Origin: Anaerolineaceae bacterium
Lineage (GTDB): Bacteria; Chloroflexota; Anaerolineae; Anaerolineales; Anaerolineaceae
Direction of reading: 5' to 3'
Assembly: GCA_002702705.1 (NCBI GenBank)
Contig: PABH01000020.1
Span: 1 to 64,000 of the forward strand
Length of the DNA stretch: 64,000 bases
Positions 36,643 through 55,688 of this stretch are shown piece by piece. The notes beneath the pieces are model-generated. The model was not told the DNA's origin, searched no databases, and saw nothing but the letters and a program-made list of their open reading frames with translations. Numbering within the stretch: position 1 is the stretch's first letter; each line of letters begins with the position of its first letter. Both the position numbers and the translations under genes were made by a program.

Positions 36643-39423
36643 ATGTCTGAAAAGAAGTGGGTTTATTCATTCCACGAAATCGACCAGGCAATCGACGCAG
36701 TCGGTGGTGATTGGGAAGGTGTTCGTGCGTTATTAGGCGGTAAGGGTGCAAACCTTGCTGATATGACACGCATTGGTGTCCCGGTACCTCCCGGTTTTAC
36801 CGCAACCACTGAAGCCTGTATTGCATATCAGGACAAAAAAGCATTTCCTGATGGCTTATGGGATCAAATGCTTGAAGCGATGAAAAATGTGGAAAAAGAA
36901 ACAGGAAAAGTATTTGGTGGAAAAGAAAATCCACTGTTAGTTTCCTGCCGTTCTGGTGCGAAATTCTCTATGCCAGGAATGATGGATACCGTATTAAATA
37001 TTGGTTTGAATGATGACACCGCCTTAGCAATGGTGAAATTAACCGAAAATGAACGATTTGTGTATGATTCATACCGCCGTTTAATTCAAATGTTCGGTTC
37101 CGTCGTTTTGGGAATTAATGATGAAGCTTTTGAACATGTATTTGATGGTTACAAATCCAACAAAGGCATCAAAGCGGATACTGATTTATCAACCGAAGAT
37201 CTAAAAGTTATCACCGATAAATTCAAAGCTGTAGTCTTAAAAGAAAAAGGTTTTGATTTCCCACAGGATCCTTACGAACAATTAAAACTCGCTACGGAAG
37301 CGGTTTTCAGATCTTGGATGGGTAAACGTGCCATTGATTACCGCCGTGCCTCCAATATTTCCGACGACCTTGGTACAGCAGTTAATATCGTAACAATGGT
37401 ATTTGGTAATATGGGCTGGGATTCCGGCACAGGTGTTGCGTTTACACGTAACCCCGCAGATGGCGAAAGCAAACTTTATGGTGATTATTTATTAAACGCT
37501 CAAGGTGAAGATGTTGTTGCAGGTATTCGCAATACGGATCCGATCCAAAAAATGGGCGAAACCATGCCAGAAGCGTACAAAGAATTCTTAGACATCGTTA
37601 AAAAATTGGAACTGCATTACAAAGATATGCAAGATGTCGAATTCACAATTGAACGTGGTAAATTATGGATGTTACAAACCCGTAATGGTAAGCGTACAGC
37701 TCGTGCCGCCGTTAAAGTTGCTGTTGATATGGCAAATGAAGGTTTGATTGACAAAAATACAGCAATTTCACGTGTAACACCAGAACAGGTTGACACTTTA
37801 TTACACCCACAATTTGATTATGAAACCAAACAGACTGCCTCTCAAGATGGTTCTTTCTTCTGTAAAGGTGTGAATGCTTCTCCAGGTGCTGCTGTTGGTC
37901 GTGTCTATTTTGATGCGGATACTACCCAGCAAAAAACCGAAGAAGAAAAACAAGATACGATTATGGTTCGTCCATTCACAAAACCAGATGATGTTCATGG
38001 TATGTTAGCTGCTAAAGGTATTTTGACCAGTGAAGGTGGTGCTACTTCTCATGCAGCAGTAGTTGCCCGCCAATTTGGTGTGCCCTGTGTTGTAGGTGCC
38101 TCTGAGGTTAAAATTGATTTAGATCATAAGGAAATGAGCGTTGGTGATGTTGTTGTCAAAGAAGGTGATTGGATCTCGGTTGATGGTACAACAGGTGAAG
38201 TATTTGTTGGTAAATTAGAAACTCATGAACCATCTCTCGATGAACAAACCGATCTATTAACCCTTTTGGATTGGGCTGATGACGTATGTGCCACACCTGG
38301 TATTCGCCAGGGCAAAGGCGCAGGTTTCCCAACCAAAGGTTTACAGGTTTGGGCAAATGCGGATTATCCTGCGGATGCACGCCGAGCACGTTCCTATGGC
38401 GCTCGCGGTATAGGATTATGCCGAACTGAGCATATGTTCTTTGAACAGGAACGCTTACCAAGTGTACAGCGAATGATTCTTGCTGATTCCAGTGAAGCCC
38501 GTACCGAAGCATTAAATGAATTATTACCGCATCAACGAAGTGACTTCGAAGGTTTATTTGAAGCAATGGATAACTGTCCAGTTATTATCCGTTTGATTGA
38601 TCCGCCTTTACACGAGTTCCTACCCGGTGCTGATGAATTACAGGATCAAATAATCACCAAACGTGTTGCACAAATGGCTGATTATATTTTGGGTAAAAGC
38701 GAATCTCAAGAAATTAAAGATTTAGAGATGATGCTGGATTCCGTTGAAGCAATGCATGAAAGTAACCCGATGATGGGTATGCGTGGTGTTCGCTTGAGTA
38801 TCATGATGCCGGAAATCGTGGAAATGCAGGTCCGAGCGATTATGGAAGCTGCTGCAAATATGACCTTAAAAGGGATCAAAGTAAAACCTGAAGTTATGAT
38901 CCCCTTGACTGGTCACATCAATGAGCTGAATGTAATTCAACCTCGTTTGGAAGCGATCGCTAAAGAAGTTATGGAAGCCAAGGGTTGTGAGTTTGAATAT
39001 AAATTCGGAACAATGATTGAAATTCCCCGAGCAGCCGTAACTGCAGGTGAAATTGCTTCTGTTGCTGAATTCTTCTCTTTTGGTACGAACGACTTAACCC
39101 AAATGACCTTTGGTTACAGCCGTGATGATGCAGAACGCAGTTTCTTGTTATCATACGTTGAACGCGGTATTTTACCAAAGAATCCATTCCAAACCATTGA
39201 TCGTGATGGCGTCGGTGGATTAATGAAGATGGCTGTCGACCAGGGTCGTGCCGCTCGTGAGGATTTGGAAGTTGGCTTATGTGGTGAACATGGTGGTGAC
39301 CCCGATTCTATCGAATTCTGTCACATGATCGGTCAGAATTACGTTAGTTGTTCTCCGTTCCGTGTACCTGTAGCTCGTTTAGCCGCTGCTCAAGCAGCAT
39401 TAAAACACGCTCCAAAAGCATAA
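36643..39423 (+). CDS. ppdK: Pyruvate, phosphate dikinase
   Basis: The 926-residue protein has the three PPDK parts. The N-terminal ATP-grasp region has LGGKGANLADMTRIGVPVPP near residue 28; the swivelling phosphohistidine domain has GGATSHAAVVARQFGVPC near 466; the C-terminal PEP/pyruvate TIM barrel has CRTEHMFF near 589, SFGTNDLTQM near 813 and LCGEHGGDP near 876. It interconverts pyruvate and PEP with ATP/AMP and phosphate or pyrophosphate, common in fermentative anaerobes. It is somewhat longer than the usual 870-900 residues. AGGAGG precedes the start and a strong terminator follows. Confidence 0.97.
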   Translation: MSEKKWVYSFHEIDQAIDAVGGDWEGVRALLGGKGANLADMTRIGVPVPPGFTATTEACIAYQDKKAFPDGLWDQMLEAMKNVEKETGKVFGGKENPLLVSCRSGAKFSMPGMMDTVLNIGLNDDTALAMVKLTENERFVYDSYRRLIQMFGSVVLGINDEAFEHVFDGYKSNKGIKADTDLSTEDLKVITDKFKAVVLKEKGFDFPQDPYEQLKLATEAVFRSWMGKRAIDYRRASNISDDLGTAVNIVTMVFGNMGWDSGTGVAFTRNPADGESKLYGDYLLNAQGEDVVAGIRNTDPIQKMGETMPEAYKEFLDIVKKLELHYKDMQDVEFTIERGKLWMLQTRNGKRTARAAVKVAVDMANEGLIDKNTAISRVTPEQVDTLLHPQFDYETKQTASQDGSFFCKGVNASPGAAVGRVYFDADTTQQKTEEEKQDTIMVRPFTKPDDVHGMLAAKGILTSEGGATSHAAVVARQFGVPCVVGASEVKIDLDHKEMSVGDVVVKEGDWISVDGTTGEVFVGKLETHEPSLDEQTDLLTLLDWADDVCATPGIRQGKGAGFPTKGLQVWANADYPADARRARSYGARGIGLCRTEHMFFEQERLPSVQRMILADSSEARTEALNELLPHQRSDFEGLFEAMDNCPVIIRLIDPPLHEFLPGADELQDQIITKRVAQMADYILGKSESQEIKDLEMMLDSVEAMHESNPMMGMRGVRLSIMMPEIVEMQVRAIMEAAANMTLKGIKVKPEVMIPLTGHINELNVIQPRLEAIAKEVMEAKGCEFEYKFGTMIEIPRAAVTAGEIASVAEFFSFGTNDLTQMTFGYSRDDAERSFLLSYVERGILPKNPFQTIDRDGVGGLMKMAVDQGRAAREDLEVGLCGEHGGDPDSIEFCHMIGQNYVSCSPFRVPVARLAAAQAALKHAPKA

Positions 39424-52857: not shown

Positions 52858-52940
52858 GGATTTGTTTTTGACCACTACATTTCCCCAATGATCGATGAAA
52901 GGAATTTTTTATTTATCTACTATGCAAAGTGTTTGAGATA

Positions 52941-53005
52941 TTGTCTATACAATGTTAACATTTATTAACATATACTTGACAATATTAGGTGTATTCTGCT
53001 AAACT
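52941..53005 (+). promoter_or_regulatory. glnA promoter with two upstream operator-like palindromes
   Basis: From 5' to 3': TTGTCTATACAA (52941-52952), which fits the GT-N-TA-N-AC core of HutC-type GntR sites; ATGTTAACATTTATTAACAT (52952-52971), 7-bp perfect arms with 6-base spacer, the same arms as before ppdK; then TTGACA (52976-52981), 18 bases, TAAACT (53000-53005). The region 52858-52940 shows nothing else clear. Confidence 0.55.
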
Positions 53006-53039
53006 GTCAGACAGTTAATTAAAATATTAATAGTTTTTT

Positions 53040-53185
53040 GGAGATAAGCGGCTGAGTCTCATGAAAATGAGAAAACGAGGAGGAGGTTCCTCTCTGCGAA
53101 GAGAGCGTTAACCCTGGAGGGGATTACAGGGGAAAATCGAAGGATCAGCGGATGCCTCCGGAGTCTGACACGGACTCCAATCTCC
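53040..53185 (+). ncRNA. Compact structured RNA in the glnA leader (candidate riboswitch or cis-regulator)
   Basis: Six complementary pairings fit one fold: a closing stem 53040-53045/53180-53185; an inner stem 53051-53055/53145-53149; three hairpins, 53057-53062/53067-53072 with GAAA loop, 53090-53095/53100-53105 with GCGA loop, 53112-53116/53127-53131; and a 3' hairpin 53160-53166/53172-53178. CCTCC (53155-53159) can also pair with GGAGG at 53079-53083 or 53082-53086 across the inner stem, making a pseudoknot. The purine-rich joining segments look like a ligand pocket. It does not match the glnA (glutamine), ydaO, T-box, lysine, glycine or M-box patterns that I know. All pairings were read by eye. 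Confidence 0.6.
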
Positions 53186-53192
53186 CTTCCAA

Positions 53193-53330
53193 AAAAGAGT
53201 TAACCGAAAATTATATGGTGACATATAACACAAGGCAACTCAGTGAGCAGTGAATCAGCTTATTTAATTTAAGCTCTTTTACCGTAAAAATTGTATGTAT
53301 GAACAGTTCTGTTTTCATACATTCATTTTC
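53193..53330 (+). promoter_or_regulatory. Second part of the glnA leader with possible expression platform
   Basis: AAAAGAG (53193-53199) can pair with CTCTTTT (53274-53280), closing a domain that contains a hairpin TTATATG (53211-53217), GTGA loop, CATATAA (53222-53228). After it, GTATGA (near 53297) and TCATAC (near 53315) form an imperfect stem followed by a T-rich stretch, a weak terminator-like element about 40 bases before the glnA start. Confidence 0.4.
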
Positions 53331-53370
53331 TTTATTAAGCGTTAATCATTTTTAGCCAAAGGAGTACGAA

Positions 53371-54708
53371 ATGGAAACAAAAGAGATTCTAGAACGTGTA
53401 AAGGCTGACGGAGTTAAATTCGTTTCATATCAGTTTACTGATGTGACTGGTACGGTAAAAAGTGTGGATGCCCCCGTGCAGCGTTTGGAGGAAGCATTGC
53501 AGGATGGCGTTTGGTTTGATGGTTCTTCGGTTCAGGGTTTTGCCCGAATTCAAGAAAGTGATATGCACTTGCGCATTGATACAGATACTTATGCGGTTCT
53601 TCCCTGGTCACCTGAAGATAATAAACGTGCTCGTTTCTTTTGTGATATTTTCTTGCCGGATGGAACACCATTTGTTGGCGACCCGCGCGGTTTATTAAAA
53701 CGAAAAATTGCTGAACTGAAAGAGCGGGGTTGGGTATTTAACGTGGGGCCAGAACCTGAATTCTTCTTATTCAAACGAAACGGTGGAGATGTTATACATC
53801 CCGTACCGCATGATGTTGGTGGTTATTTTGATTTCTCTCCAAATGATGAGGCCGTTCGAGTTCGTACAGAATTGATGGCTGCTTTAAACACAATGGGTTT
53901 GGAAATAGAAGTTGGACACCATGAAGTTGCATTAGGCCAGCATGAAATCGACTTTCGATTTAATGATGCCTTAATTGCAGCGGATAATGTGGTTACCTTA
54001 AAATATACAGTTAAAGCAATTGCTGCCCAACACGGATTGGTAGCCTCTTTTATGCCAAAACCGATTTACGGGCAGAATGGGTCCGGTATGCACTGTCACC
54101 AATCCCTTTTTAGTTTGGATGGAAAAAACCTTTTCTTTAATCCAAATGATGATCATCACTTATCTGAGTTAGCTTATCAATTTATTGCAGGTCAGTTAAA
54201 TCATGCACGTGCTTTATCTGCAATCCTTTCACCCACCGTCAATTCTTATAAACGATTGGTGCCCGGATACGAAGCGCCAGTTTATATTGGATGGGCTGGA
54301 ACAAACCGATCTGCCCTGATCCGTATTCCGCGGTACACACCTGGTAAAGATAAAGCTGTACGGGCTGAATTACGCTGCCCGGATCCTTCAGGAAATCCAT
54401 ATTTGCAATTCTCTGCCATGATTTCTGCGGCATTGGATGGGATTGATAATAAGATGGAAGTCCCGAAAGGTTTAAATAATATCAACATTTATGACCTTTC
54501 TGAGGAAGAACTTAAAGCGTTAAATATTCGCCAACTGCCTGGCTCCTTAAATGAAGCACTGGATGAATTATCAAAGAATGATGTTATCCGACATGGTTTG
54601 GGTGATGAGATGTATTCAACTTTCATGAGAGCAAAACGAGCAGAATGGGATAATTACCGAATATTTGTTACTGATTGGGAAAAAGAAAGATATTTGGAAA
54701 CAGCCTAA
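53371..54708 (+). CDS. glnA: Glutamine synthetase type I
   Basis: The 445-residue protein has the GSI motifs: an N-terminal beta-grasp domain with DGSSVQGF near residue 50, the catalytic PEPEFFLFKR near 127, KPIYGQNGSGMHCHQSLF near 230 and NRSALIRIPRY near 311. Its length and lack of the 25-residue insertion suggest the GSI-alpha group, which is feedback-inhibited rather than adenylylated. It makes glutamine from glutamate, ammonia and ATP, and would capture the ammonia set free by purine breakdown. GGAG lies eight bases before the ATG. It has a 360-base leader and a strong terminator. Confidence 0.96.
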   Translation: METKEILERVKADGVKFVSYQFTDVTGTVKSVDAPVQRLEEALQDGVWFDGSSVQGFARIQESDMHLRIDTDTYAVLPWSPEDNKRARFFCDIFLPDGTPFVGDPRGLLKRKIAELKERGWVFNVGPEPEFFLFKRNGGDVIHPVPHDVGGYFDFSPNDEAVRVRTELMAALNTMGLEIEVGHHEVALGQHEIDFRFNDALIAADNVVTLKYTVKAIAAQHGLVASFMPKPIYGQNGSGMHCHQSLFSLDGKNLFFNPNDDHHLSELAYQFIAGQLNHARALSAILSPTVNSYKRLVPGYEAPVYIGWAGTNRSALIRIPRYTPGKDKAVRAELRCPDPSGNPYLQFSAMISAALDGIDNKMEVPKGLNNINIYDLSEEELKALNIRQLPGSLNEALDELSKNDVIRHGLGDEMYSTFMRAKRAEWDNYRIFVTDWEKERYLETA

Positions 54709-54720
54709 CAAAACAAATAA

Positions 54721-54746
54721 AAAACTCCGGCAATTGCCGGAGTTTT
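54721..54746. terminator. Bidirectional terminator between glnA and the TtuA-like gene
   Basis: AAAACTCCGGC (54721-54731), AATT loop, GCCGGAGTTTT (54736-54746), with T runs outward on both strands. It serves both convergent genes. Confidence 0.94.
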
Positions 54747-55688
54747 TTATTTGTTTTTCTTAAGTTGAGTCCTTTTAATGGTATTACAATAAGAACAATT
54801 GCCTTCAGATTGGGTCGATTGTCCACAGGTAGGACATACATATAAGATATCATTTGTATCTCCATCTTCGTCTAGATTCTGGAAGATACTCTTTTTATTT
54901 TTTAAAAATTTTATATAAAATGCTAATTTCATGCCTGGACGTTGATGTTCCAATAGGTTTAAGATTTCTTTTTGTTGAATAGAAGTACTGCCGACTGAAA
55001 ATGGACATTCTTCTTCAATGTATTCAATCCCTGCTAAAAGAGCATAAGCAGCGGTTTCTCGTTCGTAAAAACGACAAAAAGGTTTTGCTTTTGGCAATAA
55101 GCCTTTTTTTGCTTTTAATACCGGGGATTGACGTCTCAAAAAATCGACTTCCCAATTTAATGTATTTCCAAATAGTACAGCAACTTCATCATCAAGATTA
55201 TGCCCTGTAACCAGTACATCGTAATCAAATTGATTGGCAATTTCATTTATAGTATGCCGTTTCACAAGACCACATACTGCACATGGTTTGCCTTTACCAC
55301 GTTTATTATAAAAAGCGATTTCTTCGATCGGACTGCCTGTTTCTTGTTGAACATTATAAATGTGTAAAGGCAGGTTTTTTTCTTTTGCGAATTTTTCTGT
55401 TAAGCGTTGAGATTCCTGGGAATAATCTCCTACACCTTGAATGCCTAAATGTATATATAAGCCACCCGTTTGATAACCCAATTGTTGTAAAACATCCCAC
55501 AAGGCTAAGGAATCTTTTCCACCGGAAACAGCGACCAAAATTTTTTGATCGGGAGTAAACATTTTGTATCGTTCAATTGTTTTTTGGGTTTGATTTTTTA
55601 TCCATTCTAAAAAATGAAAGGAACATAGGGCCAGTTTATGCTGCCGCATATTAATAACGGCATGTTTTGTACACTTTCGACACTTCAT
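54747..55688 (-). CDS. ttuA: tRNA 2-thiouridine synthetase TtuA-like (TtcA/TtuA family)
   Basis: The 313-residue protein has an N-terminal zinc finger (CRKC near residue 3, CSFH near 22), the PP-loop AVSGGKDSLALW near 55, a KPCAVCGLVKR motif near 134 and a third cysteine in EECPFSVG near 228, which together hold an iron-sulfur cluster, and a C-terminal zinc ribbon (CPTCG and CSYC). This five-part pattern is that of TtuA, which thiolates U54 of tRNA using a ubiquitin-like sulfur carrier. The carrier gene overlaps it by four bases. Confidence 0.87.
   Translation of the reverse strand: MKCRKCTKHAVINMRQHKLALCSFHFLEWIKNQTQKTIERYKMFTPDQKILVAVSGGKDSLALWDVLQQLGYQTGGLYIHLGIQGVGDYSQESQRLTEKFAKEKNLPLHIYNVQQETGSPIEEIAFYNKRGKGKPCAVCGLVKRHTINEIANQFDYDVLVTGHNLDDEVAVLFGNTLNWEVDFLRRQSPVLKAKKGLLPKAKPFCRFYERETAAYALLAGIEYIEEECPFSVGSTSIQQKEILNLLEHQRPGMKLAFYIKFLKNKKSIFQNLDEDGDTNDILYVCPTCGQSTQSEGNCSYCNTIKRTQLKKNK

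Follow-up and report, generated by a model that had tools for sequence, protein, structure and literature searches.

The glmS ribozyme usually serves in feedback control of glmS, the gene whose product turns glutamine into glucosamine-6-phosphate (GlcN6P). In Bacillus subtilis, GlcN6P triggers self-cleavage of the glmS leader, and the mRNA, left with a 5'-OH end, is degraded by RNase J1 (PMC3997798). A different system, the glutamine (glnA) riboswitch RF01739, acts on the leaders of glnA mRNAs and is a glutamine aptamer rather than a ribozyme. Here we describe a structured leader that precedes glnA in a 64,000-nucleotide stretch of an Anaerolineaceae genome (contig PABH01000020.1; hereafter the window) and compare it with both systems.

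A glmS-class leader upstream of glnA

An Rfam covariance-model scan matched the glmS ribozyme family, RF00234, to window positions 53036-53251 on the + strand with 37.4 bits (E = 3.4e-5 over the whole window), and the alignment runs end to end (model positions 1-167), including both catalytic core strands. This was the sole Rfam match at the curators' cut-offs in the whole window, and it stands 0.4 bit above the gathering score of 37 bits. Since the match is significant, the element is assigned to a known family, and the claim of the first-pass annotation that the leader fits no known class, against which it had itself named such a match as the counterevidence, has to be given up; judged by its sequence, the leader is a variant of the known glmS self-cleaving ribozyme class and not a new RNA class. 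The same annotation had called it new or very divergent, and only the second word is fair, given the 0.4 bit over the cut-off and the many relatives that fall below it. It was right to set the motif apart from the glutamine riboswitch: RF01739 gave no match at the gathering score in the whole window, nor any among the weak matches in 52900-53500, and no likeness in sequence or structure to it was seen in the window. The elements identified are as follows.

52976..53005, + strand: putative sigma-70-like promoter TTGACA-18-TAAACT (10/12 consensus positions; consensus match alone)
53036..53251, + strand: glmS-class ribozyme, whole element (RF00234, 37.4 bits)
53040..53045, + strand: outer closing stem, 5' strand GGAGAT, upstream of the cleavage site (pairs with 53180-53185)
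53047..53048, + strand: predicted self-cleavage site A(-1)/G(1) (RF00234 alignment)
53049..53054, + strand: P2.2, 5' strand C2 G3 (G4 bulge) C5 U6 G7 (pairs with CAGCG 53146-53150)
53057..53072, + strand: P1 hairpin with GAAA loop (98.6% of cells paired; 4/5 pairs with double changes)
53076..53080, + strand: P2.1, 5' strand CGA (53076-78), plus the catalytic G at 53080 (invariant in both homologue sets)
53082..53086, + strand: P2, 5' strand GGAGG (pairs with CCTCC; 100% paired, compensatory changes)
53090..53105, + strand: P2a hairpin with GCGA loop (double changes in 6/6 pairs)
53112..53131, + strand: P2b hairpin (double changes in 5/5 pairs)
53136..53139, + strand: A50 U51 C52 G53, comprising the P2.1 3' strand (UCG 53137-39) and the ligand-pocket segment (invariant; role from PMC7125110)
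53146..53151, + strand: P2.2, 3' strand CAGCG and the following G, equivalent to G65 (TCAGCGG invariant)
53155..53159, + strand: P2, 3' strand CCTCC (covariation)
53160..53178, + strand: P3 hairpin (98.5% paired; 5/6 pairs with double changes)
53180..53185, + strand: outer closing stem, 3' strand ATCTCC (leader-partner fit versus shuffles)
53197..53241, + strand: P4 domain with GGUGAC hairpin at 53211-53228 (every pair with double changes; 80-90% paired except at the innermost P4 pair)
53252..53370, + strand: spacer to glnA, with ribosome-binding site AGGAG at 53360-53364 (sequence)
53371..54708, + strand: glnA, type I glutamine synthetase, 445 aa (TIGR00653, 537.7 bits, cut-off 429; PF00120)

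The element has all the hallmarks of the glmS ribozyme: an A/G cleavage site, two pseudoknots (P2.1 and P2.2), a catalytic G and a G directly after P2.2. Helices P2, P3 and P4 carry compensatory changes; P2.1 and the catalytic G lie in ACGAGG ... AUCG segments that are invariant; and P2.2 forms with one bulged nucleotide (C2-G, G3-C, C5-G, U6-A, G7-C). By alignment to RF00234 and comparison with PMC7125110 and PMC11602151, the catalytic G at 53080 would correspond to G40 in Thermoanaerobacter tengcongensis numbering. Like RF00234, the window element sits in a 5' leader and has the same fold with its double pseudoknot, the cleavage dinucleotide, the catalytic G, the bases of the ligand pocket and the peripheral P3 and P4. 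It differs in its extra P2a and P2b hairpins, which are common to glmS-linked copies of Anaerolineae, in its outer closing stem, in its low Rfam score and in its gene: a position upstream of glmS is usual, though not strictly defining, for the family, whereas here glnA lies downstream.

Every stem read from the sequence at first sight is there. The promoter lies where it was placed, the closing stem is GGAGAT/ATCTCC, the three hairpins are P1, P2a and P2b, and P3 accounts for the 3' hairpin, P4 with its own hairpin for the "second stem domain". What had been taken for an inner stem and for a separate GGAGG/CCTCC pairing across it do pair, but both are the one canonical helix P2 (53082-86/53155-59). 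The pseudoknots of the class, P2.1 (53076-78/53137-39) and P2.2 (53049-54/53146-50), had been missed.

Covariation of the helices and invariance of the core

The structured leader itself is real: covariation in homologous glnA leaders is strong in the helices other than P2.1 and P2.2. The alignment of 44 homologous glnA leaders has 91.5% of its cells paired and double changes in 37/52 pairs; in 43 more divergent leaders the values are 94.1% and 27/41, and in either set none of 500 shuffles scored as high. Folding also exceeds chance (z = -3.2); the minimum-energy fold shows no pseudoknots and is not the basis of the structure model. The outer stem (GGAGAU/AUCUCC) closes the core and joins RNA upstream of the cut to RNA downstream of it, with a leader-partner fit of 13.7 versus 12.6 for shuffled partners in glnA-linked copies, 14.2 versus 11.5 in glmS-linked copies of the family Anaerolineaceae, and 11.8 versus 9.7 in other glmS-linked copies.

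Invariant in all 44 + 43 homologues are G1-C2-G3, P2.1, the catalytic G and the AUCG and GCGG segments, and among the parsed glnA-linked copies A-1 was found in 52/53 and GCG at nucleotides 1-3 in 53/53. P2.1 and P2.2 do not vary at all within the nitrogen-gene class, P2.2 varying between classes only; these two helices are therefore backed by identity and not by covariation, their strands never varying, as an active site would predict. Natural covariation of the active-site helix was seen elsewhere, in glmS-linked copies outside Anaerolineaceae such as locus L082, where the third P2.1 pair can change from A-U to C-G (ACGCGG with AGCGA).

Gene linkage and distribution

Among the loci fetched from the family and the phylum, 54 copies are glnA-linked (all Anaerolineaceae), 141 are glmS-linked and 4 received neither assignment. 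In the 54 Anaerolineaceae copies the ribozyme lies 51-172 nt upstream of glnA (median about 110). Both kinds occur together in 35 fetched genomes, one of which (G311) carries the tandem order ribozyme-glnA-ribozyme-glmS. A search of 400 genomes of the phylum with RF00234 placed every glnA-linked copy within Anaerolineaceae. Within that family a match at E 0.1 or better was found in 113/147 genomes, and only 42/147 exceeded the gathering score; the Rfam model therefore under-annotates Anaerolineaceae glmS ribozymes. In the phylum sample, two copies were counted in 21 of the 34 Anaerolineales genomes with a match, whereas all 46 matching genomes outside Anaerolineales have exactly one, and those fetched and classified precede glmS.

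Searching with a covariance model of the variant, whose training set includes the window element, gave matches of either kind in 344/400 Anaerolineales genomes, and nearly all readable regions among 40 more fetched from the order have glnA or gltB downstream. When named genome contigs were scanned for the pattern of the P2.2 variant (see below), 80 loci turned up, with Chloroflexi or Anaerolineae titles, including Levilinea, Bellilinea, Pelolinea and Longilinea; glnA lies downstream, directly or through ada-eamA genes, in 61 of them. In many Anaerolineales loci genes for an Ada-like AraC/methyltransferase and an EamA exporter lie between the ribozyme and glnA, and other variant loci precede split gltB-type glutamate synthase genes (Glu_synthase, GATase and GXGXG domains). 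Chance drift of a glmS ribozyme to glnA in one genome was ruled out, the arrangement being found in dozens of genomes from several families. In the literature searched, whose scope did not take in the McCown 2011/2012 glmS surveys, we found no report of a glmS ribozyme linked to glnA or gltB, and this speaks only weakly for novelty.

Some individual loci deserve mention. A ribozyme-led operon of an Ada-like AraC/O6-methylguanine methyltransferase, a YedA-like EamA exporter and glnA was seen at L220, L373, L387, L388, L390, L392 and L393, and a MOSC and/or DinB-like gene (named by eye) follows the ribozyme at L360 (genome G541), L210 and L381, sometimes before glutamate synthase genes. Longilinea arvoryzae KOME-1 has a third copy (L185 301-515, L242 from 785), of the glnA type, with no same-strand gene behind it; the next genes, which by eye are of livF and livG type, run in the opposite direction, and this copy may be an orphan, a relic or an antisense element.

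A shifted P2.2 bulge and a separate lineage

All 53 parsed glnA-linked copies have (G/A)CU at nucleotides 4-6 together with UCAGCGG, a combination almost never seen in glmS-linked copies; these have CAN with UCAGCGG or CCN with UCGGCGG (46/46 in Anaerolineaceae and nearly all others). The types can be read as a P2.2 helix with one bulged base at position 4, 5 or 6, of which the nitrogen-gene lineage would have the bulge at nucleotide 4 (G4 in the window element) and not at 5 or 6. The canonical second copy in the same genome, on contig C34 at 37413-37615, belongs to the same class and has the same P2a and P2b hairpins but has a P2.2 of CAU/CAG type and glmS downstream. According to PMC7125110, A6C rescues C4A about 24-fold in ribozyme mutant libraries, presumably via a bulged nucleotide 4; the natural bulge at position 4 matches this rescue measured in vitro.

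A tree was built from 123 cores in which nucleotides 4-6 were masked along with the variable 3' base; in it, 58 glnA/gltB copies fall on one side of a branch and 65 copies on the other (SH-aLRT 89, not starred), a clan that is consistent with, and not proof of, one origin of the glnA/gltB copies. We also observed a P4-like hairpin in 3/46 Anaerolineaceae glmS-linked copies versus 38/53 glnA-linked ones; from the former, such as L002 1501-1703, the P4 domain appears to have been lost.

Possible control of glutamine synthetase

A whole-genome scan found two clear ribozyme copies in the window's genome, before glnA and before glmS, and the genome also encodes RNase J (596 bits against a cut-off of 400). 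We consider it likely that the element is a glmS-class ribozyme that cleaves itself on activation by GlcN6P and that was taken over once, in Anaerolineales, for the mRNAs of nitrogen assimilation (glnA and gltB operons). The class, the intact core, the linkage to these genes, the conservation and the RNase J gene are seen in the sequences; the ligand, cleavage, mRNA decay and direction of control are inferred: plentiful GlcN6P, made from glutamine by GlmS, would bind the pre-formed pocket, the bound RNA would cut itself between A53047 and G53048, and the downstream glnA mRNA, with its 5'-OH end, would be degraded by RNase J. Excess of a glutamine-derived amino sugar would then lower glutamine synthesis, an end-product restraint on glutamine synthetase. 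Such feedback by GlcN6P on the enzyme supplying the glutamine that GlmS consumes would be the simplest reading, and the leader fits the control of nitrogen assimilation proposed at the outset. Since a second glutamine synthetase-like gene (472 aa, contig C55) has no ribozyme, control would not reach every member of this enzyme family.

A transcription terminator as expression platform was ruled out, as no + strand terminator-like site was called between the ribozyme and glnA; the weak hairpin noted there at first does fold but was not called as a terminator on that strand. Such a platform would be dispensable because the ribozyme is predicted to cleave. A strong intrinsic terminator-like hairpin (54723-54750, CTCCGGCAATTGCCGGAG then a T run) directly follows glnA and suggests a one-gene glnA transcript.

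Several observations count against the GlcN6P reading: the RF00234 match clears its cut-off by a narrow margin, P2.1 and P2.2 are backed by identity and not by covariation, moved-bulge variants were rescued only in part in vitro (PMC7125110), and a changed ligand would also give this kind of linkage to glnA and gltB and not glmS. The activator may indeed be a different amine-bearing metabolite of nitrogen status, acting through the retained glmS fold and cleavage chemistry, a possibility that we hold to be small but real because P2.2 and the genes have both changed. The strict lineage split in P2.2, near the active site, and the consistent linkage to GS/GOGAT genes would agree with it, and variant riboswitch classes do switch ligand together with genes, as described for guanine variants in PMC9295807. 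However, the pocket residues (G1, C2 and the equivalents of A50-U51 and G65) are unchanged in the nitrogen-gene lineage, and the bulge shift is of a kind compatible with GlcN6P-dependent cleavage in the mutant libraries of PMC7125110; the moved bulge probably changes the rate or sensitivity rather than the ligand. If the ligand had changed, this would be a second natural cofactor-dependent ribozyme specificity.

It is improbable, and more so than a change of ligand, that the element is a catalytically dead relative whose fold is kept as an RNA stabilizer or leader spacer with no ligand response. A score just above the Rfam cut-off and an altered P2.2 could be expected of such a relic, but its catalytic and pocket bases would be where it drifts, and exactly these stay the same in several Anaerolineales families. 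That the leader is a glutamine riboswitch or a new RNA class with no relation to glmS, as the first impression and the downstream glnA had hinted, is scarcely credible: the end-to-end RF00234 match with both catalytic strands rules out the latter, and all other Rfam families, including those of glutamine riboswitches, scored below cut-off.

Throughout the order Anaerolineales, the genes for glutamine synthetase and glutamate synthase are thus preceded by a separate and conserved lineage of glmS-class ribozymes, in whose P2.2 variants the bulge shifts that mutant libraries had implied occur in nature. Carriers are available in culture (Levilinea, Bellilinea, Pelolinea and Longilinea), which makes a direct test feasible. 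The conserved linkage suggests that a cell-wall sugar may control nitrogen assimilation in Anaerolineales; if the ribozyme works as expected, an amino-sugar phosphate would set the level of ammonia assimilation through RNA self-cleavage.
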